Positions 17,445 to 28,067 of a DNA stretch of 28,067 nucleotides are shown here, piece after piece; positions within the stretch are counted from its first letter, which is position 1, and each line of letters opens with the position of its first letter. Location: positions 1-28,067 of IMG/VR virus record IMGVR_UViG_3300025570_000087; one strand, 5' to 3'. Source of the stretch: a virus. The position numbers and the translations under genes were made by a program. The notes below the pieces were generated by a model. It saw only the letters and a program-made list of their open reading frames with translations. It ran no database searches and was not told the origin of the DNA.

Positions 17445-18383
17445 TCAGAACTTATATATAGTGACGCCGTGCGTCTCAGTCCAGAAATCACTAGCGGGCG
17501 CTAATACGGAGGTTAAAAAAACATTATTGCTGAAACCATACGAAACGATACCATAAACCTCATTGCCTACTGCTTTGGCGCCAGGGTCATAAGAGGGGAC
17601 GTTGTCAAGCCCTGTTGACTCTATTAACCAGGATACGCCATTATCAATCGAGCTCACAATATCGTTCGTTGCTTCTCCGAATAAATAAATAGTACCATTC
17701 TCAAGTGCGACGCCATTGGAATAACTCTTGTTAGGTGCGCCGCTTTGGCTTATCCAGGCGAGGCCATCTGTGCTGGTCAACACGACGCCTTCGTAGGAGA
17801 CCAAACAAAAAACCGCACCATTATGGACAACGCAGGGCCAGTAGTCCTCGACGGGTAGGGCCGCGGCAGTCCAGCTTTTTCCATCTGTGCTGTGTATATA
17901 TGACCCATAACCGGCGGCGATATAGCGCGTTCCACTATCCGCTACGGTGTAGTAGTCACCCGTGGGGTAATTGATGGTACTACGTGTTGTACCGTCTGTT
18001 GTCCATAAGCCGCTGGAAGAGCCTATGATAAAAGCAAAGTCGTTGGTTCGGGCTAAATGTAAGGCGTACCAATTCGGGCCTGATGGAAGTGAAGTCGTCT
18101 GCACCCAATTTATGCCGTCGCTACTGATATCAACATTGAGGTCCAGACTGCTCCCCGCTGTAGTGGACAAATAGGTCGTGGGTAGTTTAACTACCGCACT
18201 GCCTGAGGCCGAGGTATATTCCCAAATACCAACGGGGAAATCCGAGAGCGGCATATATGAGTTCTGATCCCCACCTGTTAGGGCATATATGTAATCGCCG
18301 GCAATCGATACGCCTAAGTAGTTCCCATTATAGAGCCCGAAACCATCTGTCCCCTGGACTTCGTGTAATTCTAATATATCCAT
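17445..18383 (-). CDS. Asp-box beta-propeller protein, possible receptor-binding tail protein
   Basis: The 312-aa product carries at least four Asp-box-like motifs (S-x-D-G-x-x-W): SSDGINW near residue 87, STDGKSW near 165, STDGLAW near 204 and SIDNGVSW near 245. This spacing indicates a beta-propeller of the kind found in sialidases and many surface-binding proteins. I see no sialidase active-site Arg triad, so binding is more likely than catalysis. I chose the ATG at 18383 because it overlaps the stop of a 17-codon leader frame (TAATG), the same junction used elsewhere in this operon. An upstream ATG at 18395 is also possible but has no better ribosome-binding site. Confidence 0.65.
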   Translation of the reverse strand: MDILELHEVQGTDGFGLYNGNYLGVSIAGDYIYALTGGDQNSYMPLSDFPVGIWEYTSASGSAVVKLPTTYLSTTAGSSLDLNVDISSDGINWVQTTSLPSGPNWYALHLARTNDFAFIIGSSSGLWTTDGTTRSTINYPTGDYYTVADSGTRYIAAGYGSYIHSTDGKSWTAAALPVEDYWPCVVHNGAVFCLVSYEGVVLTSTDGLAWISQSGAPNKSYSNGVALENGTIYLFGEATNDIVSSIDNGVSWLIESTGLDNVPSYDPGAKAVGNEVYGIVSYGFSNNVFLTSVLAPASDFWTETHGVTIYKF

Positions 18384-18436: not shown

Positions 18437-19614
18437 AATTTTATCTCGTGTACTACGACTTGAGCATAGTAGTTCCCGTCAGGGTGGTATTCATCCCCTT
18501 CAAAGGCTATGTATGTTGTGTTACCGAAACTAGTTACTTTAGGGTTCGCTATATATTCATACTCTCCAATAGAGTAAGGCGCTTCAAATATCTGCGTTTG
18601 TCGGTTAAAAAGAGATACTTTCAAACTGTATTTACTACCATTAAACTCACTGTATAACACTACGTAACTATTTCCACATGGGAAGATGCCGCTTTCCCAC
18701 CCATCCATGTAGGATATATGAGGAAAGTCAGTTAGTGTTTGGATTACGCCGTCTTTCTTCCATATGTATCGTGTTACAGTTGGGTTCCCACTTAAACGTT
18801 TAGAGTTTTCTAAAGCCATCATTTCTTTATCAGTATGACTAGCTACTCCAGAAGGAAACCACTTATTGAGATTAAATTCGGTTGGAAACATCTGGGTCTT
18901 AGTCCACGTAGAACCGTTGTCATCAGAAATATATTCTTGGGATGCTGAATCGTCATTGAAGTTATTAGTAGGCTCGTTAGTATACAAGCGAATCTTGTTA
19001 TATGGCAAAGTCTGCATACTTATTACTCTGGGGTATAAGTTACCCGCAGAAACTGGATACGGCGTAGATTTCAGCGCCCATCCTACACCGACAGTATGTT
19101 CCCATACTTCTATCCGGTGATCCGCACTAGAATCAGGAGTATAACTTACAGCAACTAGCGCTTTCCCTGCACTGTTTTGGCACCCGGATAACTGAGACCC
19201 GACATTTATGGCAGCCCCAACTATAGTTTCGGCAGCGCTCCATGTATCACCATTGTCGCTTGATCGCCAGAACGCACTAAGTTTTCCGGCAATCGCAGTG
19301 ACTGCCGTAATATATAGATCATTCCCTACAGGAAATATAAATCGATCGAAAATGCTACCATTATTATTATTTTCTATTTCTACTGGTGTAGACCATCCAC
19401 TTCCTACTTCTTTTTTAGCGTACCAAAGATCGTAGTTCTCTTCGAATATAAGATGAAGCGTTCCATCAGGAGTAGTGGTTATATCAATATAATCATCCCA
19501 TGCAGTTTCAGACGGGTTAATTATATATTTCTTGCCTAAATCGTATTGTGCTTCAGTGACAGCCTTTTCTGCTCGCCAAAAACCACCATTCTGATTTGCC
19601 CAACACCCACTCAT
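18433..19614 (-). CDS. BNR/Asp-box beta-propeller protein, sialidase-like fold
   Basis: The 393-aa product has two clear Asp boxes, SSDNGDTW (about 118-125) and SDDNGSTW (about 230-237). It also has propeller-like repeats of the kind DGTLHLIFEENYDLWYAKK, which are typical of exo-sialidase/BNR proteins. The catalytic Arg triad, Tyr and Glu of true sialidases could not be assigned, so glycan binding at the tail is as likely as hydrolysis. The start overlaps the upstream stop by one base, and GAGGG lies 7 bases upstream. It lies in an insertion-like block between the terminase and portal genes. Confidence 0.68.
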   Translation of the reverse strand: MSGCWANQNGGFWRAEKAVTEAQYDLGKKYIINPSETAWDDYIDITTTPDGTLHLIFEENYDLWYAKKEVGSGWSTPVEIENNNNGSIFDRFIFPVGNDLYITAVTAIAGKLSAFWRSSDNGDTWSAAETIVGAAINVGSQLSGCQNSAGKALVAVSYTPDSSADHRIEVWEHTVGVGWALKSTPYPVSAGNLYPRVISMQTLPYNKIRLYTNEPTNNFNDDSASQEYISDDNGSTWTKTQMFPTEFNLNKWFPSGVASHTDKEMMALENSKRLSGNPTVTRYIWKKDGVIQTLTDFPHISYMDGWESGIFPCGNSYVVLYSEFNGSKYSLKVSLFNRQTQIFEAPYSIGEYEYIANPKVTSFGNTTYIAFEGDEYHPDGNYYAQVVVHEIKL

Positions 19615-21152
19615 CAGCTTGCCCTCGTTCCGTCGCAGCGGAGAGTCTGCGTGTTTGATCCATCGGTGACTGTGTACGTACCGTCGCTGTTAGCTGTCCA
19701 GACTAAGCCGCTAGTAAACGTAATAGTGCTCTGTCCATCTTTTAAACTCTGTGGAGCATCAGGATCATCGCTAGCAGCGTAAAACTTACCGCCACTCATT
19801 ATGATGTCGTAGTGTCCGTCTGAGGGCCAGCTTTCTTCGGTTGGTGCCGTGGCTACACAGCCTTCCTCAACTCCATGATATTCTGGGTTACATAGGTAGG
19901 CATTCGCGTTCTCTTCACCGATAGTTATATCGTCTGGTTGAGCCCCGTCGTATATATGGGTACGGGTACGCTGTACGACAGCAACGAACTCACTAGCTAA
20001 CCTTATAAATACGCAATCGTAGTATCGTGTGTACCACCCATATGCGTCGATATGTCTCGACCCGCCTTCTGGGGTCCATACTGCATAATATTCTCTAACT
20101 GCGGCTGCAGGAGTAGAGGCCTGCCCTTGTTTTAAATATGTCCCCGACGCCCGACTCCAAAACCTACCTGGAATCCAGTTAGGAATTAGTGGAGCTCCGT
20201 TCTCCCAGCCTGCCGGTACAGCTATAGTGCCGTCACAGCCTTTGAATGTAACTGTATCGCCTGACGTAGCATCAATCATTCCAGTTACGGAGCCTACTCC
20301 ACCGCTGCTTGGTAATCCTGGTGAAGCGCCGTCGGATGCTTCAGCGAAGTCATTCTCACCGAAGGGTTCTGTTACCGGTAGCGGTTCGTTGTTTAGTAAA
20401 TCATTAATATCATACGACGTTCCTGTCTCGTCCGTGCAGGACGTTGACGCGCCGAAGAGTGATGCGCCTCTCCAAAAGCAACTAGATACGCCGTTCACGA
20501 TAAGATTACCGTCAGCATCATAGGCCGCAGTCGTTCCGCCCTGGTCTATTGAGTACCCGTCGTCAGTGGCGGTTAACGTCTCTCCGCCGCCAAGCGCTAG
20601 TGATGAATCACTCGAGCCAGGACTTGGAGCGTCAGGGTCATATTGATTAGTTTCAAAGTTGCCATTAATTAGTGCTACGTCATAGCATGTATCTGAAGTC
20701 CACCCAGATGTATCAGTTGGTGCTACTGATGGACAGAAGGTGTCTACGTCTACGGTGCACAGTACAGTAGTAATCAGCCTGCTAGTGAGCGGCTGCCAGC
20801 CGCCAGAGAAATACTCAACCTGCACTTGTTGTCCCGAATCAACAACTCTGAATGAGTAGCCGCCAGATGCGTTCGCTTGGATATACTCCTTGCAATCAGC
20901 CATCATTTGATGCGCATCAGCATAAGCTAGCGCTTCAGTGTGAAAATAGCTCTGCACATTAGGTGCGACCCATGTTGCGCCATTAAATGACGCATCAGGG
21001 AACCCACTGCTAGACCCTCGCTCGCCCTGTACCCAACCATCGATGGCAGGAGGAGTGTCAGCATCTACCCAACCTTCAGGGACTGGATAAGTTCCGTCGG
21101 TATGTAGAATAAAGCAGTTGCCATCTGCATCTTGCATAGGGATACTAGCCAT
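19614..21152 (-). CDS. Virion adhesion-like protein with internal duplication
   Basis: The 512-aa product is rich in Gly, Ser, Thr and Asp, with paired cysteines, and is predicted beta-rich. The protein is two copies of one unit: residues about 9-205 and 306-497 share PVPEGW/AVPAGW, APTDTSGWTSDTCYDVALINGNF/APTEESWPSDGHYDIIMSGGKF, DPDAP in both, and TATDDGYSI/TANSDGTYTV. The DPDAP motif occurs in some phage attachment-type proteins, so adhesion is a guess. No signal peptide or membrane segment is seen. The start overlaps the terminase stop (TAATG), which suggests coupling to it. Family not recognised. Confidence 0.65.
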   Translation of the reverse strand: MASIPMQDADGNCFILHTDGTYPVPEGWVDADTPPAIDGWVQGERGSSSGFPDASFNGATWVAPNVQSYFHTEALAYADAHQMMADCKEYIQANASGGYSFRVVDSGQQVQVEYFSGGWQPLTSRLITTVLCTVDVDTFCPSVAPTDTSGWTSDTCYDVALINGNFETNQYDPDAPSPGSSDSSLALGGGETLTATDDGYSIDQGGTTAAYDADGNLIVNGVSSCFWRGASLFGASTSCTDETGTSYDINDLLNNEPLPVTEPFGENDFAEASDGASPGLPSSGGVGSVTGMIDATSGDTVTFKGCDGTIAVPAGWENGAPLIPNWIPGRFWSRASGTYLKQGQASTPAAAVREYYAVWTPEGGSRHIDAYGWYTRYYDCVFIRLASEFVAVVQRTRTHIYDGAQPDDITIGEENANAYLCNPEYHGVEEGCVATAPTEESWPSDGHYDIIMSGGKFYAASDDPDAPQSLKDGQSTITFTSGLVWTANSDGTYTVTDGSNTQTLRCDGTRAS

Positions 21153-23149
21153 TAGACTGACATCGGGTCTTTAGAACCCGCGCCTTGTGTGAATGCTTTT
21201 AGTTTGTCTTTCCAGCTGGCGTGCTCTTGCGCTTTAGGCGCGCGAGGTGCAGGGAAGCGCATCGCCATACGGACGACCCATGACAACGCATCGACGATAT
21301 CGTCGTGGACACCACCAGGGAACCGCATTAACTCAAACACCGCTTGCTCAACCCACGGTTGATTGCTGGGGAAGAAGACCATGCCTTGCTGCATACGGCC
21401 TTGTAACGGGCGAGCGCGTACTGACTTATCGTTAATAGGTGTAAGTGCATCCTTGCCCTCTGCCAACGTAAAGAACGCTTTTCGTTCTTGCATACGCCGA
21501 GCCAATATAGGTTTAATAGCCATCTCGAGATGTCCTTTCTCGATACCGACTAACTGGGGTTTGTAACGCATGGCGGTATCAATGATTGTTTCAACAATAC
21601 CAAGCGCATCCCATCGTCCTCTTATTATATCAAGAACATGGATCTGGTCCAAGTAATCAACACCGATGACAGCGCCTACCGTGTAATCGTTGGTCTGTTT
21701 CTCACCGATAGCCAAATCCCAGGCGATGTATACATTGTACTTGTGACCGACAGGCGTATACGGCTCCATCCTAAACATACCTTTAGTGAAGTACACACCT
21801 TCGTCAGGGACAGGATTTTGCTGGTATAACGCAGACCAATGTCGTGGCTGCATTGAGCGCCGCATATTAAGCAGTCGTGAATAAGGGAAGCGACTCTCAT
21901 GGAGTGGCTCGTCCTTCTCACGTAGCAATCGATAGCCGTCCTCAAGGTCAATGATATCTTTACCCTGAATAATTTGATGCGTCTCTAAATCTTCATACTC
22001 GTCATCAGTAGCAATCGCAGGGTAAGAAACAATCTCCCATTTATCAATAGAATCCATCTCAAATTGATATGACTTTATTTCGCCCTGTATGTTCGCCCGC
22101 TCTAGGTCGTTAGATGCAGCAGCTATCCGATCTCGTGCTTCTGCGATGAGTTCTTCCAGCTCGGCTGTCTGCTCCTGCATCTGCAGTATCATACGACCAC
22201 TCAAATCATCATCGTGCCAGCGGGTCTGGATTACAAGTGTCCCACCACCAGGCGCAAGACGCGTCTTCGCAGTAGAGCCCCACCAATCCCACGTTTTTTC
22301 GCGCATAGTTTCCGAATCAGCTTCCTCTGCATCCTTAACCGGATCGTCAATGATGAAGACGTGCGCACCTTTACCTGTGATACCACCCCCGACGCCCGCT
22401 GCAACATACCCACCTCCTGCTGTAGTAGCCCACGCTTCTGCGGCTTGGCTAGATTTAGATAAGGTCGCTTTAGGAAAGATAGCTTTGTACGTCGGCGTCT
22501 GCATCATGTCCCGCACCTTGCGAGAGAACCCCATCGGCAGTGACACGTTGTACGAGCTTGCTATAATCTCAAACGTAGGGTGATGCCCTAATATATACGC
22601 AGGGAAGTTCTTTGACGCTATCTCACTCTTGCCGTGACGGGGTGGCATGGCTAAGATCAACCTGGGGCTTTTCTTGTCGACCACATCTTGTAAGAACCGT
22701 TCTAACCGGTCACATATATCTTCGTGCACCCAGCCTGGTTCATAATCCGGCTTAAACTTCTGAATAAAGTGCAGTAGCCTACGGCGTGCTAACACCCGCG
22801 ACGCTAACTCTCTATCCGCCATGGTAGCGGCGGTCACCGCTTTTTTCTTCACTTCCTTCTCTTTCAGAGCAAGCCGCGCCATCCGTTTCTGGTCGTACAC
22901 CTTCTGATTACGTACGCCTTGCACGACTTTACGGTGTGACTCACGCTCAGCTGCAGCGGTCGCTATCTTCTCATTCCGTCGCTTAGCGACATCCGCTGCT
23001 AGCTTATCCGTGCTCGTCGTGTCACAACTCGTACACGTTGTACTATAGGTCGCTGGGTTACGGGTGAGCTGCTGAAAGCTCTTAACCGTTCTATCCTTAC
23101 TACAGACCTCACACTTCATCTTCATCAAACTCCGCGTCGATAATCCCAT
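21152..23149 (-). CDS. Terminase large subunit (packaging ATPase and nuclease)
   Basis: The 665-aa product is the DNA-packaging motor. A P-loop MPPRHGKSE lies at about 168-176 and a Walker B FIIDDP at 265-270. The RNase H-like nuclease has AWDLA (Asp478), VGIEKG (Glu537) and HDDIVDA (Asp616/Asp617). Two features are unusual: an N-terminal zinc-ribbon pattern (Cys13, Cys16, Cys39, Cys42), and a coiled-coil insert at about 325-365 between the ATPase and nuclease. The start is uncertain. Met1 at 23149 overlaps the small subunit by 41 bases with distant AGGA; Met9 (23125) and Met11 (23119) have GGAG closer by and would overlap far less. Confidence 0.92.
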   Translation of the reverse strand: MGLSTRSLMKMKCEVCSKDRTVKSFQQLTRNPATYSTTCTSCDTTSTDKLAADVAKRRNEKIATAAAERESHRKVVQGVRNQKVYDQKRMARLALKEKEVKKKAVTAATMADRELASRVLARRRLLHFIQKFKPDYEPGWVHEDICDRLERFLQDVVDKKSPRLILAMPPRHGKSEIASKNFPAYILGHHPTFEIIASSYNVSLPMGFSRKVRDMMQTPTYKAIFPKATLSKSSQAAEAWATTAGGGYVAAGVGGGITGKGAHVFIIDDPVKDAEEADSETMREKTWDWWGSTAKTRLAPGGGTLVIQTRWHDDDLSGRMILQMQEQTAELEELIAEARDRIAAASNDLERANIQGEIKSYQFEMDSIDKWEIVSYPAIATDDEYEDLETHQIIQGKDIIDLEDGYRLLREKDEPLHESRFPYSRLLNMRRSMQPRHWSALYQQNPVPDEGVYFTKGMFRMEPYTPVGHKYNVYIAWDLAIGEKQTNDYTVGAVIGVDYLDQIHVLDIIRGRWDALGIVETIIDTAMRYKPQLVGIEKGHLEMAIKPILARRMQERKAFFTLAEGKDALTPINDKSVRARPLQGRMQQGMVFFPSNQPWVEQAVFELMRFPGGVHDDIVDALSWVVRMAMRFPAPRAPKAQEHASWKDKLKAFTQGAGSKDPMSV

Positions 23150-23633
23150 TCAAATGAGATTCCTCAACTTCCAGCTCTTGTGCGGGGTTAATCTGTCCTT
23201 GTGCTTCTGTCATCGCCAACAGCTCGTCATCACTGAGCTCATTCAACCGATTAACAAAATCCTTCTGACTATTACTAAGCTCAATCTGTGCACGCTCTAT
23301 CTCATAGAAGCCACACATCTTATTAATCTCACTAGCGGCGCGTACCATCGCGTTGGCGTCGTCTGTCAGCTTTGCAACATCAAACGCCTCCATCACCATG
23401 GCCTGTACTTTATCTCGGGTCATCTTCATTGCGGATTGATTCCTTTCAAGGCGCACATTCATCTCTGACCGCATCTTAGGATCTGCAGTCTGAAGCTCAA
23501 CGTATTTACGGGGGTTTTGCGAGCCAGCTTTCTTAGCGGCTTGGGTCTTGGACATACCGAGCTCACAAAATTGCAGGTATCGCCACTGCATATCTGAGAA
23601 CTGGCTTTTGTAACCCACTAAATCCTGGGGCAT
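23109..23633 (-). CDS. Terminase small subunit
   Basis: The 174-aa product lies directly before the large subunit and overlaps it. The N-terminus carries WRYLQFCELGMSKTQAAKKAG, a helix-turn-helix-like segment of the type used to recognise the packaging site. A helical middle (VQAMVMEAFDVAKLTDDANAMVRAASEINKMCGFYE) is typical of the oligomerisation domain. The C-terminal tail is very acidic (DAEFDEDEV), as in many small terminases that contact the large subunit. AAGGA lies 9 bases upstream of the ATG. A promoter with an extended -10 sits about 40 bases upstream. Confidence 0.8.
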   Translation of the reverse strand: MPQDLVGYKSQFSDMQWRYLQFCELGMSKTQAAKKAGSQNPRKYVELQTADPKMRSEMNVRLERNQSAMKMTRDKVQAMVMEAFDVAKLTDDANAMVRAASEINKMCGFYEIERAQIELSNSQKDFVNRLNELSDDELLAMTEAQGQINPAQELEVEESHLNGIIDAEFDEDEV

Positions 23634-23667
23634 GGCTACTCATCCTTGAGTAATTGACTTAGAGCAT

Positions 23668-23676
23668 AGTATAGCA
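23668..23676 (-). promoter_or_regulatory. Extended -10 promoter before the small terminase gene
   Basis: TGCTATACT on the minus strand matches TGnTATAAT with one mismatch. No good -35 is visible. The predicted start, about 7 bases downstream, leaves a leader of about 28 bases, the same as at the HNH gene. Confidence 0.45.
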
Positions 23677-23730
23677 GCTTTGTAAAGCCTGTCCATGTAA
23701 CGACGTGTGGACGACCATGTAGCGGCGTTG

Positions 23731-24144
23731 CTAAGAAACCGTGTACGAGTTCCCCTTTGCTGTGTTGTCAGCGTGGGATAGCGCTTGTAGGTTACTAGGT
23801 ACGTGCAAGCCGCAAACTAAGAGGCCTCGTAGCGGGATAATGTGATCCATATCTTGTCCTGATACTAGCTTTGAGTACGCTTCATAGAAGTCAGGGCCAG
23901 ATACCCAACGAGGTATAACCGTCCGCTTCTTCAGCTTCTTCCAGGCGTCTTTCGCCCGAGCTCTCCCAAGACGGAGTAAACATACGTCCTGCTTCTTACT
24001 CACGCGATGTCGCTTTGAATAGCTCGAATTACGTACGGCGCGTCGACAACTTATGCACGAGGCATCTAGGCCGTCCTTGCTTTTCACCCTGTTACCGAAC
24101 TCTGCTTTGCTGAGCGTACGCTCACACTGGCTGCATTTCTTCAT
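23731..24144 (-). CDS. HNH endonuclease with zinc ribbon
   Basis: The 137-aa product begins with a zinc ribbon (Cys4, Cys7, Cys30, Cys33) and a basic middle. An HNH core follows: DMDHIIPLRG with catalytic-type Asp100-His101, then VPSNLQALSHADNTAKGN supplying the Asn and metal ligands. HNH proteins coded directly upstream of terminases assist cos cleavage in several phages; that role fits here but is inferred. A homing nuclease is the alternative. AAGGAA lies 8 bases before the ATG. It is the first gene of the leftward operon. Confidence 0.82.
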   Translation of the reverse strand: MKKCSQCERTLSKAEFGNRVKSKDGLDASCISCRRAVRNSSYSKRHRVSKKQDVCLLRLGRARAKDAWKKLKKRTVIPRWVSGPDFYEAYSKLVSGQDMDHIIPLRGLLVCGLHVPSNLQALSHADNTAKGNSYTVS

Positions 24145-24178
24145 CTGCTACTTCCTTATAGCTTGCTAAGTCGGATTC

Positions 24179-24215
24179 ATTATAGCAGCGCTGGCTATTT
24201 TTAAAAAATTTTTTT
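24179..24215 (-). promoter_or_regulatory. Leftward promoter with extended -10 and A/T tract
   Basis: TGCTATAAT at 24187-24179 on the minus strand is a perfect extended -10. There is no -35 consensus, but an uninterrupted A/T tract (six A then seven T on the plus strand, 24203-24215) lies at about -31 to -43, where it could act as an UP-type or bent-DNA element. Leader length to the HNH start is about 28 bases. It could drive the whole virion operon. Confidence 0.6.
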
Positions 24216-24234
24216 CGGCAAAAATGGGTATCTC

Positions 24235-24430
24235 AGGGGCTCAGCCTACCCTACCCCCTTACGTAGTGAGCGGGGTCGGTTCGGATTCCGATTCTCAGAC
24301 TTCGGTCTGGAGTCCCACGCTCTGTGTACAGAGAAACAACTTCGTTGCTTCTCATCCTCAGCCCCTCAGCGTAGCGCAGGTTCAGTATCAAAAACAACGG
24401 CACGTTGTATTGTGAGACTAGAACCTGCGC
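24235..24430. ncRNA. Highly structured non-coding segment (candidate structured RNA or packaging site)
   Basis: Successive stems are: ACCCC and CTTAC against GTGAG and GGGGT (24253-24276), TCGG/CCGA (24281-24291), CAGAC-TTCG-GTCTG (24296-24309), CTCTG/CAGAG (24320-24333) and GAGAA..CAA/TTG..TTCTC (24331-24353, competing). Arms AGGGGCT (24235-24241) and AGCCCCT (24360-24366) can close this domain. A second domain has 10-bp outer arms GCGCAGGTTC (24374-24383) and GAACCTGCGC (24421-24430) around a 6-bp hairpin with a 3-base loop (24394-24408). No family is recognised, and the transcribed strand is unknown. Confidence 0.5.
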
Positions 24431-24493
24431 AAGCTAGCTTAGTATACCACGCACAGCGACACGCAACCGCCTCTCCCCTCGTACCACATCACG

Positions 24494-24518
24494 CTATAGC
24501 TACGTCTACGTGCTATAG
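24494..24518. promoter_or_regulatory. Dyad, possible operator
   Basis: The perfect 7-bp arms CTATAGC (24494-24500) and GCTATAG (24512-24518) flank 11 bases containing CTACGT partly repeated. The right arm lies in TGCTATAG, a weak extended -10 for rightward transcription. Confidence 0.35.
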
Positions 24519-24633
24519 ACAACTCTGTTGGCATGTGCTAGGAGACCGGGAGCGGAGGGACAACACACTCGTAGAGAATCAGGTATGTCAATACATCATT
24601 GTATACACAGGAGTTGTTGTTTTAATACCACAC

Positions 24634-24678
24634 ACGTGCCAGCAGAGCATGGCACTACATTGGTTTACCTATGTGTAC
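24634..24678 (+). repeat. 45-base module, copy A: hairpin plus TTGGTTTACCTATGTGTA box
   Basis: The stem GTGCCA/TGGCAC (24636-24655) encloses GCAGAGCA. Inside it a GC/GC pair step and an AGA triloop can form. After 4 bases comes the 18-base box (24660-24677). Copy B at 25505-25549 is identical except for two stem bases that change together. It lies 37 bases before the first rightward gene. Confidence 0.85.
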
Positions 24679-24679
24679 T

Positions 24680-24693
24680 AGGCATCTTCGCCT
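24680..24693 (+). promoter_or_regulatory. Leader hairpin before the 78-aa gene
   Basis: AGGC-ATCTTC-GCCT. The 4-bp stem lies between the box and the Shine-Dalgarno site. A longer pairing of TGTACT (24674-24679) with AGTACA (24705-24710) would partly cover the Shine-Dalgarno site. Confidence 0.45.
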
Positions 24694-24714
24694 CATTCAT
24701 TAGGAGTACATCTC

Positions 24715-24951
24715 ATGTCAACTAACAAAGAAAACTTGGTTTCTATCGCTCGCGATTCTGTTCAAATCTCACGCACACTTGCAGGCATAACCGTTCAGCT
24801 TGCGGGTGCAGGCGTGGTCGTAGCAGGCGTAGCCATTGCGGCCGCTGGTGCTAGCGTGTCAATGGCTGGCGTTAAGATTGAAGGCGAAATGAACTTCGTT
24901 CGTCGCATGAGTAACAAGATGGAACGCATGATGGCTAAAGAAGCTCGCTAA
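24715..24951 (+). CDS. Small membrane protein, 78 aa
   Basis: This is the first gene of the rightward block. AGGAG lies 8 bases before the ATG. The product has one strongly hydrophobic Ala/Gly/Val segment (about residues 22-53, AGAGVVVAGVAIAAAGASVS), long enough for one membrane pass or a helical hairpin. A basic amphipathic C-terminus follows (FVRRMSNKMERMMAKEAR). No family is recognised. Size and layout resemble many small phage membrane proteins, including holin-like ones, but nothing here proves a lysis role. A UUCG terminator starts 22 bases after the stop. Confidence 0.7.
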   Translation: MSTNKENLVSIARDSVQISRTLAGITVQLAGAGVVVAGVAIAAAGASVSMAGVKIEGEMNFVRRMSNKMERMMAKEAR

Positions 24952-24972
24952 CGTTTCGGTCGCTAGTCTCTC

Positions 24973-25003
24973 AGCCTCAACACTTCGGTGTTGGGGCTAT
25001 TTT
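24973..25003 (+). terminator. UUCG-loop terminator after the 78-aa gene
   Basis: The 11-bp stem AGCCTCAACAC/GTGTTGGGGCT with a TTCG loop and one G-U pair is followed by ATTTT. The T-run is short and merges into the third copy of the TTGGTTTACC box. Confidence 0.75.
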
Positions 25004-25019
25004 GGTTTACCTATGTATA
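25002..25019 (+). repeat. 18-base box, copy C
   Basis: TTGGTTTACCTATGTATA differs from copies A and B at one base. Here the terminator hairpin, not the GCAGAGCA-loop hairpin, lies 3 bases upstream. Confidence 0.8.
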
Positions 25020-25033
25020 AGCACTTTCGCTTA
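25018..25033 (+). promoter_or_regulatory. Leader hairpin before the 47-aa gene
   Basis: TAAGC-ACTTTC-GCTTA, 5-bp perfect stem, directly after the box and 5 bases before the AGGAG site at 25039. Confidence 0.45.
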
Positions 25034-25050
25034 ATACTAGGAGTTCTACC

Positions 25051-25194
25051 ATGTTTTCATATCGTCAGTACAAAAAACAGCAAGCTAAGAACGAAGCAGT
25101 CTTCCGCATGGAAATATGCTTCATCTGTTTCATGGCGGGCTTGTTCGCCATGGATGCCTACTTGGGCAACTTCTACCTACTTGGAGGTGTGTAA
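25051..25194 (+). CDS. Small membrane protein, 47 aa
   Basis: The product starts MFSYRQYKKQQAKNEAVF and continues into a hydrophobic segment (about 21-45) with ICFICFMAGLFAMDAYLG, so it is a basic N-terminus plus one membrane pass. AGGAG lies 8 bases before the ATG. The stop overlaps the next ATG (TAATG), and GGAGG for that gene lies within this one, so the two are co-translated and may form a membrane pair. No family is recognised. Confidence 0.65.
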   Translation: MFSYRQYKKQQAKNEAVFRMEICFICFMAGLFAMDAYLGNFYLLGGV

Positions 25195-25466
25195 TGGATA
25201 TGTTTCTCCCTGGTATCATCAGCGGCATGGGCATACTCGTTGTGCTTATGCAGTTTGACTTTCGTAAGGTCCTTGGGTACTCGCTACTCATAGATATAGC
25301 AAGCACTGGTGGCTTGGCTTGGATCTTCTTGGGAACGTTCTCAGGAATGATGAGCGGCATCTTCGGTGGGCTCACCGTGTCGCTTGTCCTTGCCTTTAGC
25401 AAAAAGCTTCTTGGTTACAAAAAGCTCACTCGTGGTGGTTGGGTCTCACATCCGGCCACTTGGTAA
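25194..25466 (+). CDS. Membrane protein with two to three hydrophobic segments, 90 aa
   Basis: The start ATG at 25194 overlaps the previous stop by one base, with GGAGG 8 bases upstream, which settles the start against an in-frame ATG further left. Hydrophobic segments are at about 4-20 (FLPGIISGMGILVVLMQF) and about 29-73 (one or two passes, rich in Gly, Leu and Ile). A basic C-terminus follows (KKLLGYKKLTRGG). The two-gene arrangement with the 47-aa membrane protein is suggestive of a functional pair. Holin, superinfection-exclusion and plain accessory roles are all possible; none is shown. Confidence 0.68.
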   Translation: MDMFLPGIISGMGILVVLMQFDFRKVLGYSLLIDIASTGGLAWIFLGTFSGMMSGIFGGLTVSLVLAFSKKLLGYKKLTRGGWVSHPATW

Positions 25467-25472
25467 TCAGCG

Positions 25473-25503
25473 TTTAGCCTCAGCACTCAGTGTTGGGGCT
25501 AAA
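25473..25503 (+). terminator. Terminator-like hairpin after the membrane pair
   Basis: AGCCTCAGCAC/GTGTTGGGGCT with TCA loop extends with TTT/AAA to 14 bp and two G-U pairs. It is a clear relative of the other two terminators, but A residues follow instead of T, so termination may be weak on this strand. Confidence 0.5.
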
Positions 25504-25504
25504 A

Positions 25505-25549
25505 ACGTGTCAGCAGAGCATGACACTACATTGGTTTACCTATGTGTAC
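25505..25549 (+). repeat. 45-base module, copy B
   Basis: The stem GTGTCA/TGACAC (25507-25526) has the same GCAGAGCA loop as copy A, then the identical 18-base box at 25531-25548. The two differences from copy A form a C-G to T-A change in one base pair, so the stem is preserved. Confidence 0.85.
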
Positions 25550-25561
25550 CAACTTCGGTAC
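25546..25561 (+). promoter_or_regulatory. Leader hairpin before the 68-aa gene
   Basis: GTACC-AACTTC-GGTAC, 5-bp perfect stem overlapping the end of the box, 10 bases before AAAGGA. Confidence 0.45.
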
Positions 25562-25582
25562 TTACTATCTAAAGGATGGATT

Positions 25583-25789
25583 ATGAGCTCTCTCATACAA
25601 AGAACACACGAAGCTGTAAACAGCTACTACCGCACTCGCATGGTGGGTCTTTCAATCACACACCGTGCGCCTATTGAACAACTCCGTGTTCAAGCTTGCT
25701 TGAATCTAGGCGTTGACCCGTACTTCCAACCTGTCTTTGACGACCTAGCACTAGGCGTCCCAGCAACTATCTCAGGAGCACACTCATGA
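25583..25789 (+). CDS. Small protein of unknown function, 68 aa
   Basis: The ATG at 25583 has AAAGGA about 7 bases upstream and follows the second module. The longer reading from 25490 would start inside the terminator-like hairpin and is rejected. The product (MSSLIQRTHEAVNSYYRTRM...) is mixed helical, with no membrane segment or motif. Its stop overlaps the next ATG (ATGA), so it forms a pair with the acidic 59-aa protein. Confidence 0.62.
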   Translation: MSSLIQRTHEAVNSYYRTRMVGLSITHRAPIEQLRVQACLNLGVDPYFQPVFDDLALGVPATISGAHS

Positions 25790-25965
25790 GTAATCAACTA
25801 TTCATCGCTCGTTCTGACGACGGTTTACAAGACACGTTCATCGATGGCGAAGAAATCGCCTCTGATGACCTTATGGACAACCCAGAGTTCATGTACTTCT
25901 ACTCAGAAGTAGAAGACAACGATGAGCTGTCTCTTGAAGACGTCATCAAACTGTATCTCCTATAA
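25786..25965 (+). CDS. Very acidic 59-aa protein
   Basis: The frame starts at an ATG overlapping the previous stop, with AGGAG 8 bases upstream. The product has about 17 Asp/Glu against only two basic residues, spread along its length (for example SEVEDNDELSLEDVIKL). Strongly acidic small early phage proteins include DNA mimics that block host restriction or other DNA-binding proteins; that is a hypothesis only. No family is recognised. Confidence 0.62.
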   Translation: MSNQLFIARSDDGLQDTFIDGEEIASDDLMDNPEFMYFYSEVEDNDELSLEDVIKLYLL

Positions 25966-25975
25966 CAAAAACACT

Positions 25976-26000
25976 AGTGCCTAGCATTTCGCTAAGCACT
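25976..26000 (+). promoter_or_regulatory. Leader hairpin before the 277-aa gene
   Basis: The arms AGTGC..TAGC and GCTA..GCACT form a 9-bp stem with one C-A mismatch and an ATTTC loop, 8 bases before AAAAGG. It lacks the 18-base box but resembles the other three leader hairpins in its loop. Confidence 0.45.
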
Positions 26001-26022
26001 CATATCTAAAAGGTAACTAAAA

Positions 26023-26856
26023 ATGGCTAATTCAACTAAAACAAACAGCGTAGCTCAAGTTCAAAACTCAACGGGTAACATCCTTGATATTGAACGTATC
26101 ATCGACAGCGTAGAAGGTGGTCACAATGACTTCCTTTGGGATCGCATCGCGAGCAATGGCATGCATGCATTCTCATATGCTTTCATGACAATTGAGGACA
26201 TTAGCAAAGCGGCTGTACTCTCAGATGCACAGTCTACGTTCATCACTGCGCTAGAAGCTCAGCAGGCGGACGCTGTGGACTTAATAGCTTGGGCTTACCC
26301 CAACACCACAGGGTTACGTAATGCACGCACTACGCCTGAATCACAAGCCGCCTACGAAGTAGGTGCTGTGAACAAGAAACTAGTCACTCAAGCAGATCAA
26401 GATCTGCAGTTAATCACTCAAATGATTGACGGCGACTTAAAGAACAAGTTCATTAAGGCGGACGAGGCAGAGCTTCGTAAAATATCAGCTCAGGCTGACT
26501 ATGAAGAACAAATCGCTGGCATCAGCGAAGCGCTTACTAAGTCATCTGGCTTACAAGCTCGCCTTGCTAAGGCACTCACAGTAGCAACACAGGCTAAACA
26601 GTCAGCATTCGAGGTAACGAATGATACGCAAGCCTTCTTCATCATTGATAGCATGTACAACATCATCCGTGATGGTGCTGACTTTAACAAAGTCAAAGAG
26701 CTTCTTAAGAAGCAATCATCATCGTTCGTACGCGAACGCATCATGGTTAACCGTGTTATCTACCAAGGTGCTGTAGACTCAGTCAAAGCTATCTGGTCTA
26801 AACACAAATCAAACTACGAAGGCGCAGGTTACGCGCCTAGTAACAACATGCACTAG
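26023..26856 (+). CDS. Unknown 277-aa helical protein
   Basis: This is the largest rightward gene in the window. AAAAGG lies 10 bases before the ATG. The product is soluble and mostly helical: a polar N-terminus, a middle with DLIAWAYPNTTGLRNARTTPES, then long charged helices (AELRKISAQADYEEQIAGISEALTKSS broken by a short loop) and a C-terminal VRERIMVNRVIYQGAVDSV helix. No enzymatic motif, signal peptide or membrane segment is seen. A strong terminator follows at once, so it ends its transcription unit. An abundant early host-interaction protein is possible, but the role is unknown. Confidence 0.7.
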   Translation: MANSTKTNSVAQVQNSTGNILDIERIIDSVEGGHNDFLWDRIASNGMHAFSYAFMTIEDISKAAVLSDAQSTFITALEAQQADAVDLIAWAYPNTTGLRNARTTPESQAAYEVGAVNKKLVTQADQDLQLITQMIDGDLKNKFIKADEAELRKISAQADYEEQIAGISEALTKSSGLQARLAKALTVATQAKQSAFEVTNDTQAFFIIDSMYNIIRDGADFNKVKELLKKQSSSFVRERIMVNRVIYQGAVDSVKAIWSKHKSNYEGAGYAPSNNMH

Positions 26857-26863
26857 ATCCTAC

Positions 26864-26893
26864 AGCCCTAGCACTTCGGTGTTAGGGCTTTTT
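26864..26893 (+). terminator. Strong rho-independent terminator
   Basis: An 11-bp stem AGCCCTAGCAC/GTGTTAGGGCT with a TTCG loop and one G-U pair is followed by TTTTTC. It is 8 bases after the stop of the 277-aa gene. Confidence 0.9.
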
Positions 26894-26926
26894 CTATGTC
26901 GGTCTTACGTTGGTGGCTCCGACGAG

Positions 26927-26951
26927 TTAGAGAGCGTTACACGCCCTCTAA
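26927..26951 (+). other. Hairpin with one internal mismatch
   Basis: TTAGAG and GCG pair with CGC and CTCTAA across one A-C mismatch, with loop TTACA. No T-run follows. Confidence 0.4.
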
Positions 26952-26962
26952 GACTAATAGAC

Positions 26963-26992
26963 AAACTAACAGCGCTTAGGCGCTGTTAGTTT
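26963..26992. other. Perfect 13-bp hairpin
   Basis: AAACTAACAGCGC and GCGCTGTTAGTTT flank a TTAG loop with no mismatch. T's in the 3' arm and then AAAAAA follow, so it is not a standard plus-strand terminator. It could be a bidirectional terminator, a protein site or an origin element. Confidence 0.6.
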
Positions 26993-27041
26993 AAAAAACA
27001 CTGACTTACATGGGGTTTACTCGATGCCCATAGCTTAAGCG

Positions 27042-27069
27042 TTGGTACATATAGCTTTAGTGCTATAAT
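27042..27069 (+). promoter_or_regulatory. Sigma70-like promoter with extended -10
   Basis: TTGGTA, a 16-base spacer, then TATAAT preceded by TGC (TGCTATAAT). GGGCA begins immediately after the -10. It could drive the right-hand operon. Confidence 0.6.
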
Positions 27070-27350
27070 GGGCAGTAAATCTCGTACTTCGACGTTTACT
27101 CCTCCCATAGGGAACTATCACTCTTTTATTTTCTCTCTCTCTTCTTATATAGAAACTCTCTTAAATGTAGTGCCCTTAGTGCCCAGTAGTGTTTATATAA
27201 TAATAATATAGAGAGGTAACAAGCACTTAACTAAGAAATAAGGCGGGCAATGAAGCGGGCATTGGTCTGGGCATGCATTTTAGTGGACAGTGATATTTGC
27301 CCCTATTTAGCACCCGACAGGTTTACCCTGTTTCCACAACCCCCTTTATA

Positions 27351-27370
27351 ACCCTACTCTAAGTAAGGGT
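27351..27370 (+). other. Small hairpin in the leader of the right-hand operon
   Basis: ACCCTACT pairs with AGT and AGGGT, with one bulged A and a CTA loop. No T-run follows. Confidence 0.35.
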
Positions 27371-27397
27371 GCTAAGCTTAAATCACTGCCCTGGACA

Positions 27398-27411
27398 CAA
27401 CTGGCCAGTTG
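27398..27411. promoter_or_regulatory. Perfect 14-bp palindrome, possible operator
   Basis: CAACTGGCCAGTTG, 26 bases upstream of the 83-aa gene. Its twofold symmetry fits a dimeric regulator site. It is separate from the TGCCC boxes, although one of them ends 6 bases upstream. Confidence 0.45.
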
Positions 27412-27437
27412 CCAATGACCACTCTTTGGAGCATAAA

Positions 27438-27689
27438 ATGATCACTCAAGAGAAGCTAAAAGAACTCATCTATTACAAACCTAGTCATGGGACTGTCACC
27501 TTTCTCACTAAAAGAGCACCGATGAAGCCTAACGCCTACGCTATAAACATAGTGGGGGTGTCTTACCCTATAAAGAAGCTGATACACCTATATATGACAG
27601 GCGAGATGCCTAAGCACCCTGTCACCCCTCTAAATGGTATCGAATCAGACAACCGCTGGGTAAACTTAGCACAGCTACCGCTTCGTTAA
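27438..27689 (+). CDS. Degenerate HNH-endonuclease-like protein, 83 aa
   Basis: I chose the ATG at 27438 because GGAG lies 7 bases upstream; the longer in-frame start at 27369 would run through the palindrome. The product follows the line of phage HNH proteins: ELIYYKPSHGTVTFL, a strand with INIVGVSYPIKKLIHLYMTGEMP, then NGIESDNRWVNLAQL. In active relatives the segment before NG reads like I-D-H-x-N-G. Here it is VTPLNG, so the catalytic Asp-His is absent, and the usual H-R before the LIWLY-type helix is K-K. Nuclease activity is unlikely; a DNA-binding role is possible. Confidence 0.6.
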   Translation: MITQEKLKELIYYKPSHGTVTFLTKRAPMKPNAYAINIVGVSYPIKKLIHLYMTGEMPKHPVTPLNGIESDNRWVNLAQLPLR

Positions 27690-27733
27690 GAAACGTGATA
27701 CTGTACTCCTCACTTTATAACCAAGGACGGGAA

Positions 27734-27895
27734 ATGAAAGCAACAATCAAACGACTTCCCCGAATCCATCCCAGCGAGCATCTTGATGCGGTGAAGGTAA
27801 GCGTCATGTACTTCCGTTGTAGGATGGCGTTCAATAAAACGTGCGTCTCAAACAGCCGCTACCGCGAGTTTAGGGAGCTAATCAAAGATGCTTAA
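27734..27895 (+). CDS. Small basic protein, 53 aa
   Basis: The ATG at 27734 has AAGGA 6 bases upstream, a better start than the in-frame ATG at 27695. The product is basic (MKATIKRLPRIHPSEHLDAV, then YREFRELIKDA), with a pair of cysteines and no known motif. It overlaps the next gene by 8 bases. A small nucleic-acid-binding or regulatory protein is possible. Confidence 0.55.
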   Translation: MKATIKRLPRIHPSEHLDAVKVSVMYFRCRMAFNKTCVSNSRYREFRELIKDA

Positions 27896-28040
27896 AGCAA
27901 AACTTAAACGCCAACCAGCCTACAACGACGACGGCATCCCGCTCCGTAAGTTCAGATTCTGGAAAGAGCAATACTACTTTGACAAAAGGATGATAAGCGT
28001 TGGAGACAGCGTCACAGAATACTGGAGGATCCTGCAATGA
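27888..28040 (+). CDS. Small protein of unknown function, 50 aa
   Basis: The frame starts MLKAKLKRQPAYNDDGIPLR and ends EYWRILQ. GGGAG lies 10 bases upstream, and the start is nested in the end of the previous gene. The stop overlaps the next ATG (ATGA). Aromatic and basic residues dominate the middle (KFRFWKEQYYFDKR). No family is recognised. The tight packing supports it as a real gene in an operon. Confidence 0.5.
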   Translation: MLKAKLKRQPAYNDDGIPLRKFRFWKEQYYFDKRMISVGDSVTEYWRILQ

Positions 28041-28067
28041 AGCAACACCGTTCGCCCTCACGCCGTA
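28037..28067 (+). CDS. Start of a further rightward gene, truncated by the window
   Basis: An ATG overlaps the previous stop, with GGAGG 8 bases upstream, and the frame MKQHRSPSRR is open to the window end. Only ten codons are visible. Confidence 0.5.
   Translation, partial: MKQHRSPSRR

Follow-up and report, generated by a model that had tools for sequence, protein, structure and literature searches.

The host-takeover genes of phage SPO1 are arranged as cassettes, each with its own promoter and terminator. Autographiviridae combine the T7 promoter sequence with a 5' mRNA hairpin, T7 mRNA is processed at RNase III sites, and put and nut are RNA sites of antitermination. Phage N4 uses extruded DNA hairpins as promoters, which are read by an injected virion RNA polymerase (vRNAP); transcription starts at a set distance from the hairpin and depends on gyrase and single-strand binding protein. 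A purine is needed at position -11, the centre of the loop on the template strand (PMC4496689).

The stretch of viral DNA analyzed here (the window; 28,067 nucleotides, positions 1 to 28,067 of IMG/VR record IMGVR_UViG_3300025570_000087) belongs to a KPP25-related phage. Across roughly 80% of its length, the terminase has 40-41% identity to the terminases of KPP25 and phiR18 (Pseudomonas phages) and of phiA008 (an Aeromonas phage). The late genes run leftward. Beside the divergent terminase operon lies a cluster of small rightward genes that begins at the divergent junction; its last gene encodes 277 aa and is followed by a terminator-like hairpin. Within this cluster, three modules, each composed of a hairpin (hairpin I), a box and a second hairpin (hairpin II), precede the genes as follows.

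24636-24655, plus strand: hairpin I of module 1, GTGCCA-GC-AGA-GC-A-TGGCAC, with 6+2 pairs, an AGA loop and a bulged A
24660-24677, plus strand: box of module 1, TTGGTTTACCTATGTGTA, from the box scan
24674-24710, plus strand: hairpin II of module 1, outer arms TGTACT/AGTACA and inner AGGC/GCCT, enclosing the Shine-Dalgarno sequence TTAGGAG
24715-24951, plus strand: small gene (78 aa) after module 1, no PHROG match
24973-24998, plus strand: hairpin I of module 2, terminator-like, 11 pairs and a TTCG loop, followed by ATTTTGG
25002-25019, plus strand: box of module 2, TTGGTTTACCTATGTATA, from the box scan
25015-25037, plus strand: hairpin II of module 2, GTATAAGC-ACTTTC-GCTTA(A)TAC, from folding
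25051-25194, plus strand: gene of 47 aa, first of the pair after module 2, no PHROG match
25194-25466, plus strand: gene of 90 aa, its start overlapping the preceding stop (TAATG), weakly matching two functionally uncharacterized PHROGs
25507-25526, plus strand: hairpin I of module 3, like that of module 1 with one C-G pair replaced by T-A
25531-25548, plus strand: box of module 3, TTGGTTTACCTATGTGTA, from the box scan
25546-25561, plus strand: hairpin II of module 3, GTACC-AACTTC-GGTAC, from folding
25583-25789, plus strand: gene of 68 aa after module 3, followed by a 59-aa gene (25786-25965)
25976-26000, plus strand: hairpin AGTGCCTAGC-ATTTC-GCTAAGCACT (z -3.0), with no box, preceding the Shine-Dalgarno sequence of the 277-aa gene
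26023-26856, plus strand: gene of 277 aa, last of the cluster
26864-26889, plus strand: terminator-like hairpin closing the cluster, with 31-nt surroundings that share 84% identity with the region around the module 2 hairpin

The window is 99.96% identical over 28,066 bases to a 62,640-base contig (G001), which encodes an integrase, so the virus is probably a temperate phage. No DNA similar to the window was found in the phage collection, where the 277-aa protein had only weak matches and a 213-aa protein had none. Immediately ahead of the cluster (24229-24300), a C-rich CCTACCCTACCCCCTTACG stretch is followed by GTCGGTTCGGATTCCGATTC, and a similar ACCCCTA tract lies at the matching place in several relatives (e.g., L052, L071, L076, L098, and L110). 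Further rightward genes lie beyond the cluster terminator and are preceded by a sigma-70-like site (27042-27069, plus strand; TTGGTA-16-TATAAT with TG; 10 of 12 positions). The -35 region of this site is a near-complement of CTATGTGTACCAAC in module 3; the 14-nt inverted match between module 3 and 27041-27054 was set aside, being at about chance level for 4 kb by arithmetic. The cassette was not marked in any annotated record examined, and the titles and abstract openings among the literature matches listed contained neither a description of it nor a transcription map of a KPP25-like phage. The words promoter, RNA polymerase and terminator were absent from the available text of PMC13340246 in a word search.

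The preliminary description, made from the sequence of the window, reported two 45-base copies and a third box, and realignment bore out these claims. The copies at 24634-24678 and 25505-25549 are identical at 43 of 45 bases; loop and box are the same in both, and the sole differences are the two partners of one stem pair. The third box starts 3 bases past the 11-pair terminator-like hairpin and has a single G-to-A difference, and a rightward gene or gene pair does follow each of the three modules. With a tolerance of three mismatches, the window contained three occurrences of the box TTGGTTTACCTATGTRTA (0.04 expected; none of 100 shuffles had three), and at the same threshold G001 contained it at the same three places only. 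It is identical at 17-18 of 18 positions across the modules despite two upstream hairpins and different downstream stems, which argues that the sequence itself is kept. The spacing between hairpin I and TGTG/TGTA is 16 nt in module 1 and 15 nt in module 2; among relatives, it is 8 nt in the third cassette (c3) of prophage L074 and 10 nt before KPP25 ORF025.

Hairpin I changed as a pair between modules 1 and 3 (C-G to T-A), as the preliminary description had claimed. The chance that two random substitutions in 45 bases give a Watson-Crick compensatory pair in an 8-pair stem was 0.0027 by simulation. That description went on to call the change direct evidence for selection, which calls for caution: the paired change is real, but it is a single event, and template-switch repair of quasi-palindromes, which can produce paired stem changes, could also yield it. 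Hairpin I of relatives in the 212-229-aa clade (described below) has further paired changes from G-C to T-A (L140 vs. L141a and L143 vs. L144) and also broken pairs, one each in L142 and L148 and two in L146. A GC-rich stem followed by a T-run, as in an intrinsic terminator, occurs in module 2 as well as in five L074 cassettes but not in modules 1 and 3, whose stems are perfect or near-perfect with 3-base loops, as are those of KPP25 and phiA008. Hairpin I also stands before the first genes of the cluster (window module 1, KPP25 ORF025, and phiA008), where no upstream gene is present to be terminated, so that termination is unlikely to be its sole role. A third copy of the cluster terminator stem (CCTCAGCAC..GTGTTGGGG), without a T-run, lies directly before module 3 (25477-25501), as if module 3 had been inserted behind an old terminator.

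Each box in the window is followed by a second short hairpin of differing sequence, a feature that was absent from the preliminary description. Hairpin II lies just before or around the ribosome-binding site, and its 5' arm is the end of the box; if the hairpins are real, the leader RNA would be involved and not DNA alone. Folding-energy support, as computed for the three modules, is uneven. From TGTG/TGTA to the start codon, z was -1.7 (p 0.057) for module 1, -0.8 for module 2 and -2.3 (p 0.023) for module 3, and from the start of the box to the start codon it was -1.1, -2.8, and -0.8, respectively. The longer fold prefers a different outer pairing in module 1 and keeps the same hairpin in module 3. 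An alternative pairing is possible in module 2 between CCTA of the box (25010-25013) and TAGG of the Shine-Dalgarno sequence (25038-25041). Among 31 hand-chosen leaders the mean folding z was only -1.0, and five were no better than the mean of their shuffles.

In one clade of relatives, the final gene of the cluster encodes a protein of 212-229 aa; here, all 45 cells of hairpin II were paired across nine distinct rows. One of the five pairs changed on both sides (AU in seven rows and UA in two) and three never vary; covariation is small. Sliding the partner by 1-3 columns left at most 68% paired, but this control is biased toward a structure derived from those very sequences. Of 500 shuffles, 12 matched both the pairing and the covariation score, and 212 matched the count of doubly changed pairs. 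The Shine-Dalgarno sequence is inside the folded hairpin in module 1, in this clade, where the start codon is the end point of the 3' arm, and in L074 cassette c4. The arms in L074 cassettes c2, c3, and c5 could pair with the Shine-Dalgarno sequence by inspection, but those of c3 and c5 do not do so in the predicted best fold. The Shine-Dalgarno sequence lies outside, 3' of the hairpin, in module 3, L085, L088, L095, and L098.

Eighty of 85 viral loci found with a related terminase were kept; one (L042) is G001 itself and another (L043) is a nearly identical virus. The preliminary description had looked to relatives for further copies of its module. Within the collection of viral contigs, the exact module was found only in the near-identical contig, and cassettes of similar build were found in distant relatives. 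A scan of viral contigs for the exact 16-base box gave 30 stretches, of which one, in L016 (the near-identical contig), was the module; the other 29 were not flanked by hairpins in this arrangement and seem to be matches in coding sequence or by chance. A longer hairpin-plus-box pattern likewise matched the near-identical contig only. Relatives with terminases 40-49% identical carry the similarly built cassettes at the matching place in the genome, in the order hairpin I, short spacer, TGTG, hairpin II, and ribosome-binding site. In the 212-229-aa clade, the order is hairpin I, TTCGT (ATCGT in L146), 7-8 nt, (T/A/G)GTGTC, Shine-Dalgarno sequence, and start codon.

In the prophage L074 (61,880-base contig), the hairpins of five cassettes are terminator-like: 6-8 of the nine bases that follow are T, and the box (CCTGTGT, TCTGTGT, or CCTTTGT) comes directly after; a sixth, half copy stands ahead of the first gene. 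The T-run of two of these cassettes is followed by the next Shine-Dalgarno sequence after no more than about 15 nt. TTTTTTCTGTGT occurs four times in the L074 contig (up to one mismatch), always on the cassette strand. L074 is letter-identical over 17,464 bases to a locus of Parendozoicomonas haliclonae (L127), a KPP25-related prophage in the 702,795-base contig NZ_FWPT01000001 of this named host. KPP25 and phiR18 (Kochitakasuvirus) have small rightward genes in the same place and order (ORF025-028, the last of 263 aa), and ORF025 is preceded by a hairpin, CTTGTGTC, and a Shine-Dalgarno sequence, but the box sequence is not as in the window and TerL is about 41% identical. The last cluster genes of the window, KPP25, phiA008, and L074 had no mutual BLAST similarity. 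The sequence TGTGTACCAACTTC in L108, as in module 3, was not counted because it sits among many GGTGTACC repeats resembling origin iterons. Such iteron-like repeats (GGTGTACC, TGTGTGCCA, or TGACACA), the units of which differ between viruses, lie near the small-gene cluster in L108 (300-700) and also in L085, L091, L101, L110, and L116.

Leader counts were based on 57 of the 80 loci, deduplicated and with the window excluded, and comprised 66 cluster leaders, including those of L108 and other loci with TGTGT-bearing iteron-like repeats. TGTGT was present 22-65 nt before the start codon in 18 of the 66 (shuffles: mean 3.6, maximum 10), in none of 106 terminase-strand leaders and in none of 52 cluster-strand leaders more than 3.6 kb away. 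Separation from the same controls was less clean for (T/A)TGTG (20 of 66, 3 of 106, and 4 of 52) and GTGTC (10 of 66, 6 of 106, and 2 of 52). TGTG was followed by a stem of at least five pairs in 12 of 29 cluster leaders, compared with 10% in shuffles and 1 of 9 and 0 of 4 in the controls. The pattern TTSGT-N6-8-GTGT had 14 of its 24 matches near a gene start, compared with 0 of 15 and 2 of 16 in controls, and 13 of the 14 lay on the cluster strand; it was formulated after the leaders had been inspected and this count is descriptive.

An unbiased motif search of the 66 relative leaders gave, in a first run, the Shine-Dalgarno sequence only, and otherwise a GC-rich hairpin I/TTCGT stretch of one clade; the window box was not recovered. 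A covariance model was built from nine leaders of the 212-229-aa clade, with the window copies left out because their inclusion would have guaranteed a match, and searched against 13 sources. It matched the leaders of two other lineages at the right place (L046, E 0.006; L074, E 0.007) and missed the window modules; its one row in the window was at 17522-17549 on the minus strand. None of the 16 rows of an unfiltered scan of 20000-28067 was a plus-strand match to a module, and two of them, both on the minus strand, fell near modules: one at 25050-25095 (E 0.1), next to module 2, and one at 25506-25530 (E 6.2), covering hairpin I of module 3. Since the clade model misses the window modules, the link of the window to the family is architectural. 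Its basis is place, architecture, and a shared TGTRTA-like box end rather than a statistical alignment.

The comparison with N4 had been raised in the preliminary description and was not supported. By eye, the first two early leaders of N4 (P1 and P2) are built alike, with a hairpin, 2-4 nt, a second, 5'-leader hairpin, a Shine-Dalgarno sequence, and small early genes. Yet the template-strand loops of modules 1 and 3 are TCT with C at the center, the stem and loop of module 2 are unlike those of N4 promoters, the box is unlike N4's, and no relative of the vRNAP was found. The N4 mini-vRNAP matched none of six family genome records (G001 and five relatives; N4 control positive), nor did PF00940 (T7 and N4 controls positive), although these records may be incomplete and remote polymerase homologs could escape BLAST. 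Sequence searches of the largest virion protein (2415 aa) against PHROGs and the PDB gave no match to a polymerase, and its C-terminus resembles virion structural proteins; it is encoded at 19095-26342 of G001 (minus strand) and has an HEFGH metallopeptidase-like motif near residue 1402. A simple motif scan of G001 frames of at least 250 aa detected neither DxDxD nor a T7-type motif B. The KPP25 hairpins at L123:9022-9042 and L123:9323-9343 carry GCGGAGC on the coding strand, and the same sequence is present in the second N4 early leader, there on the template strand.

The modules share with T7-type promoters of the Autographiviridae a short kept sequence before single genes and a transcript that would begin with a hairpin, but the six records had no PF00940 polymerase and the sequence is unlike the T7 promoter. 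The cassettes resemble the gene-start regions of N4 and T7 somewhat in build and belong to neither class by the features examined. The small genes of L074, separated by terminator-like hairpins, are reminiscent of the SPO1 host-takeover cassettes, but the window box is no recognizable sigma-70 promoter. No sigma-70-like site with at least 9 of 12 positions (-35/-10 hexamers, 16-18 nt apart) was found on the plus strand of 24000-26050. The sigma-54 consensus is TGGCAC-N5-TTGC with GG and GC kept. Modules 1, 2, and 3 match it at 8, 6, and 7 of 10 positions without keeping the required dinucleotides, GC being GT in all three and GG being GA in module 3. Pfam or PHROG scans covered approximately 42 of the 77 genes predicted in G001 and detected no sigma factor, and a 181-aa G001 protein had a weak helix-turn-helix match. 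A search of 24200-27100 against Rfam gave three weak, chance-level matches, none near the gathering score and none on a module.

The preliminary description had narrowed the function to a phage-specific promoter or a translation/processing signal, and these are still the right options. We tentatively favor, at somewhat less than an even chance, the reading that the modules are expression cassettes for one gene or gene pair, in which the box would contain a transcription start specific to the family and the leader would open with a 5' hairpin. This reading builds on features seen in the sequences: the anatomy, repetition and place of the modules, the excess of TGTGT in the cluster leaders of related viruses, and the pairing of hairpin II in one clade. 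From these we infer that hairpin I may close or insulate transcription arriving from upstream and that the box may hold a start site; because the box is not a recognizable sigma-70 promoter, reading it would require a factor or polymerase particular to the family. With a start at TGTG or close to it, the first nucleotides of the transcript would fold into hairpin II, which may protect the mRNA end and set access to the Shine-Dalgarno sequence. Provided that the serial terminators of L074 are functional, expression of each gene requires either a separate start or antitermination. We favor a start at each gene for three reasons: L074 leaves so little room between T-run and Shine-Dalgarno sequence, the box is conserved even where its flanks are not, and a hairpin would stand at the very beginning of the leader.

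The strong rival is a leader element that acts in processing or translation, which accounts just as well for hairpin II and for the paired changes. In its processing form, which we consider possible with a probability nearer to one in four than to even, a single read-through mRNA would be made, hairpin I would guard the upstream 3' end, a host nuclease would cut the AU-rich box, and hairpin II would guard the new 5' end, comparable to mRNA processing at the T7 RNase III sites. Hairpin I lacks a T-run in two of the three window modules and need not terminate, its pairs change together in relatives, and hairpin II would be a structure at the RNA level near the Shine-Dalgarno sequence. However, an 18-base kept sequence exceeds what such cutting should need, the five terminator-like hairpins of L074 should hinder read-through, and module 1 has no annotated or predicted gene directly upstream on its strand to protect, only weak overlapping ORFs. 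A translational operator, in which hairpin II hides or shows the Shine-Dalgarno sequence and a phage protein or other signal switches several small genes jointly, is unlikely. It would suit module 1, L074 c4, and the 212-229-aa clade, where the Shine-Dalgarno sequence is enclosed and, in the clade, the 3' arm reaches the start codon, but not module 3, L085, L088, L095, or L098, where it is outside; the predicted energies are modest, and hairpin I and the T-rich part of the box are left unexplained.

The remaining explanations have less weight. It is quite unlikely, if a little less so than those that follow, that KPP25-related phages have their own class of hairpin-plus-box promoter starting each cluster gene, with hairpin I as an extruded DNA hairpin within the promoter, read by an unrecognized phage polymerase or a retargeted host polymerase in a lineage without an N4-type polymerase. 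Very unlikely is an antitermination site, a put- or nut-like RNA that lets polymerase pass the terminators between genes: two hairpins with a kept stretch between them adjoin serial terminator-like hairpins, but there is one copy per gene and not per operon, and no antiterminator protein was identified. An N4-type promoter has slightly less probability still. The 3-base-loop stems of modules 1 and 3, KPP25, and phiA008 and the build shared with the first two N4 early leaders are in its favor, but two defining features are already lacking; besides the polymerase searches and the missing purine at -11 (PMC4496689), the module 2 hairpin, with 11 pairs and a loop of four bases, counts against it. 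We give the least probability to a recent segmental duplication with a functionless hairpin, its paired change arising through template-switch correction of a quasi-palindrome. In its favor, just two of 45 bases differ and hairpin I of modules 1 and 3 is unlike that of module 2, but the module 2 box is kept without its flanks and similarly built cassettes occupy the matching place in relatives.

The tentatively favored reading, in which each cassette starts its own gene or gene pair, can be tested in the cultured relatives KPP25, phiR18, and phiA008 and in the prophage of a sequenced host. If it is correct, the mostly uncultured KPP25-related group would use a per-gene cassette of insulator hairpin, box, and leader hairpin. 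Such cassettes would offer compact, separately controlled expression parts and would point to a new phage transcription factor or polymerase.
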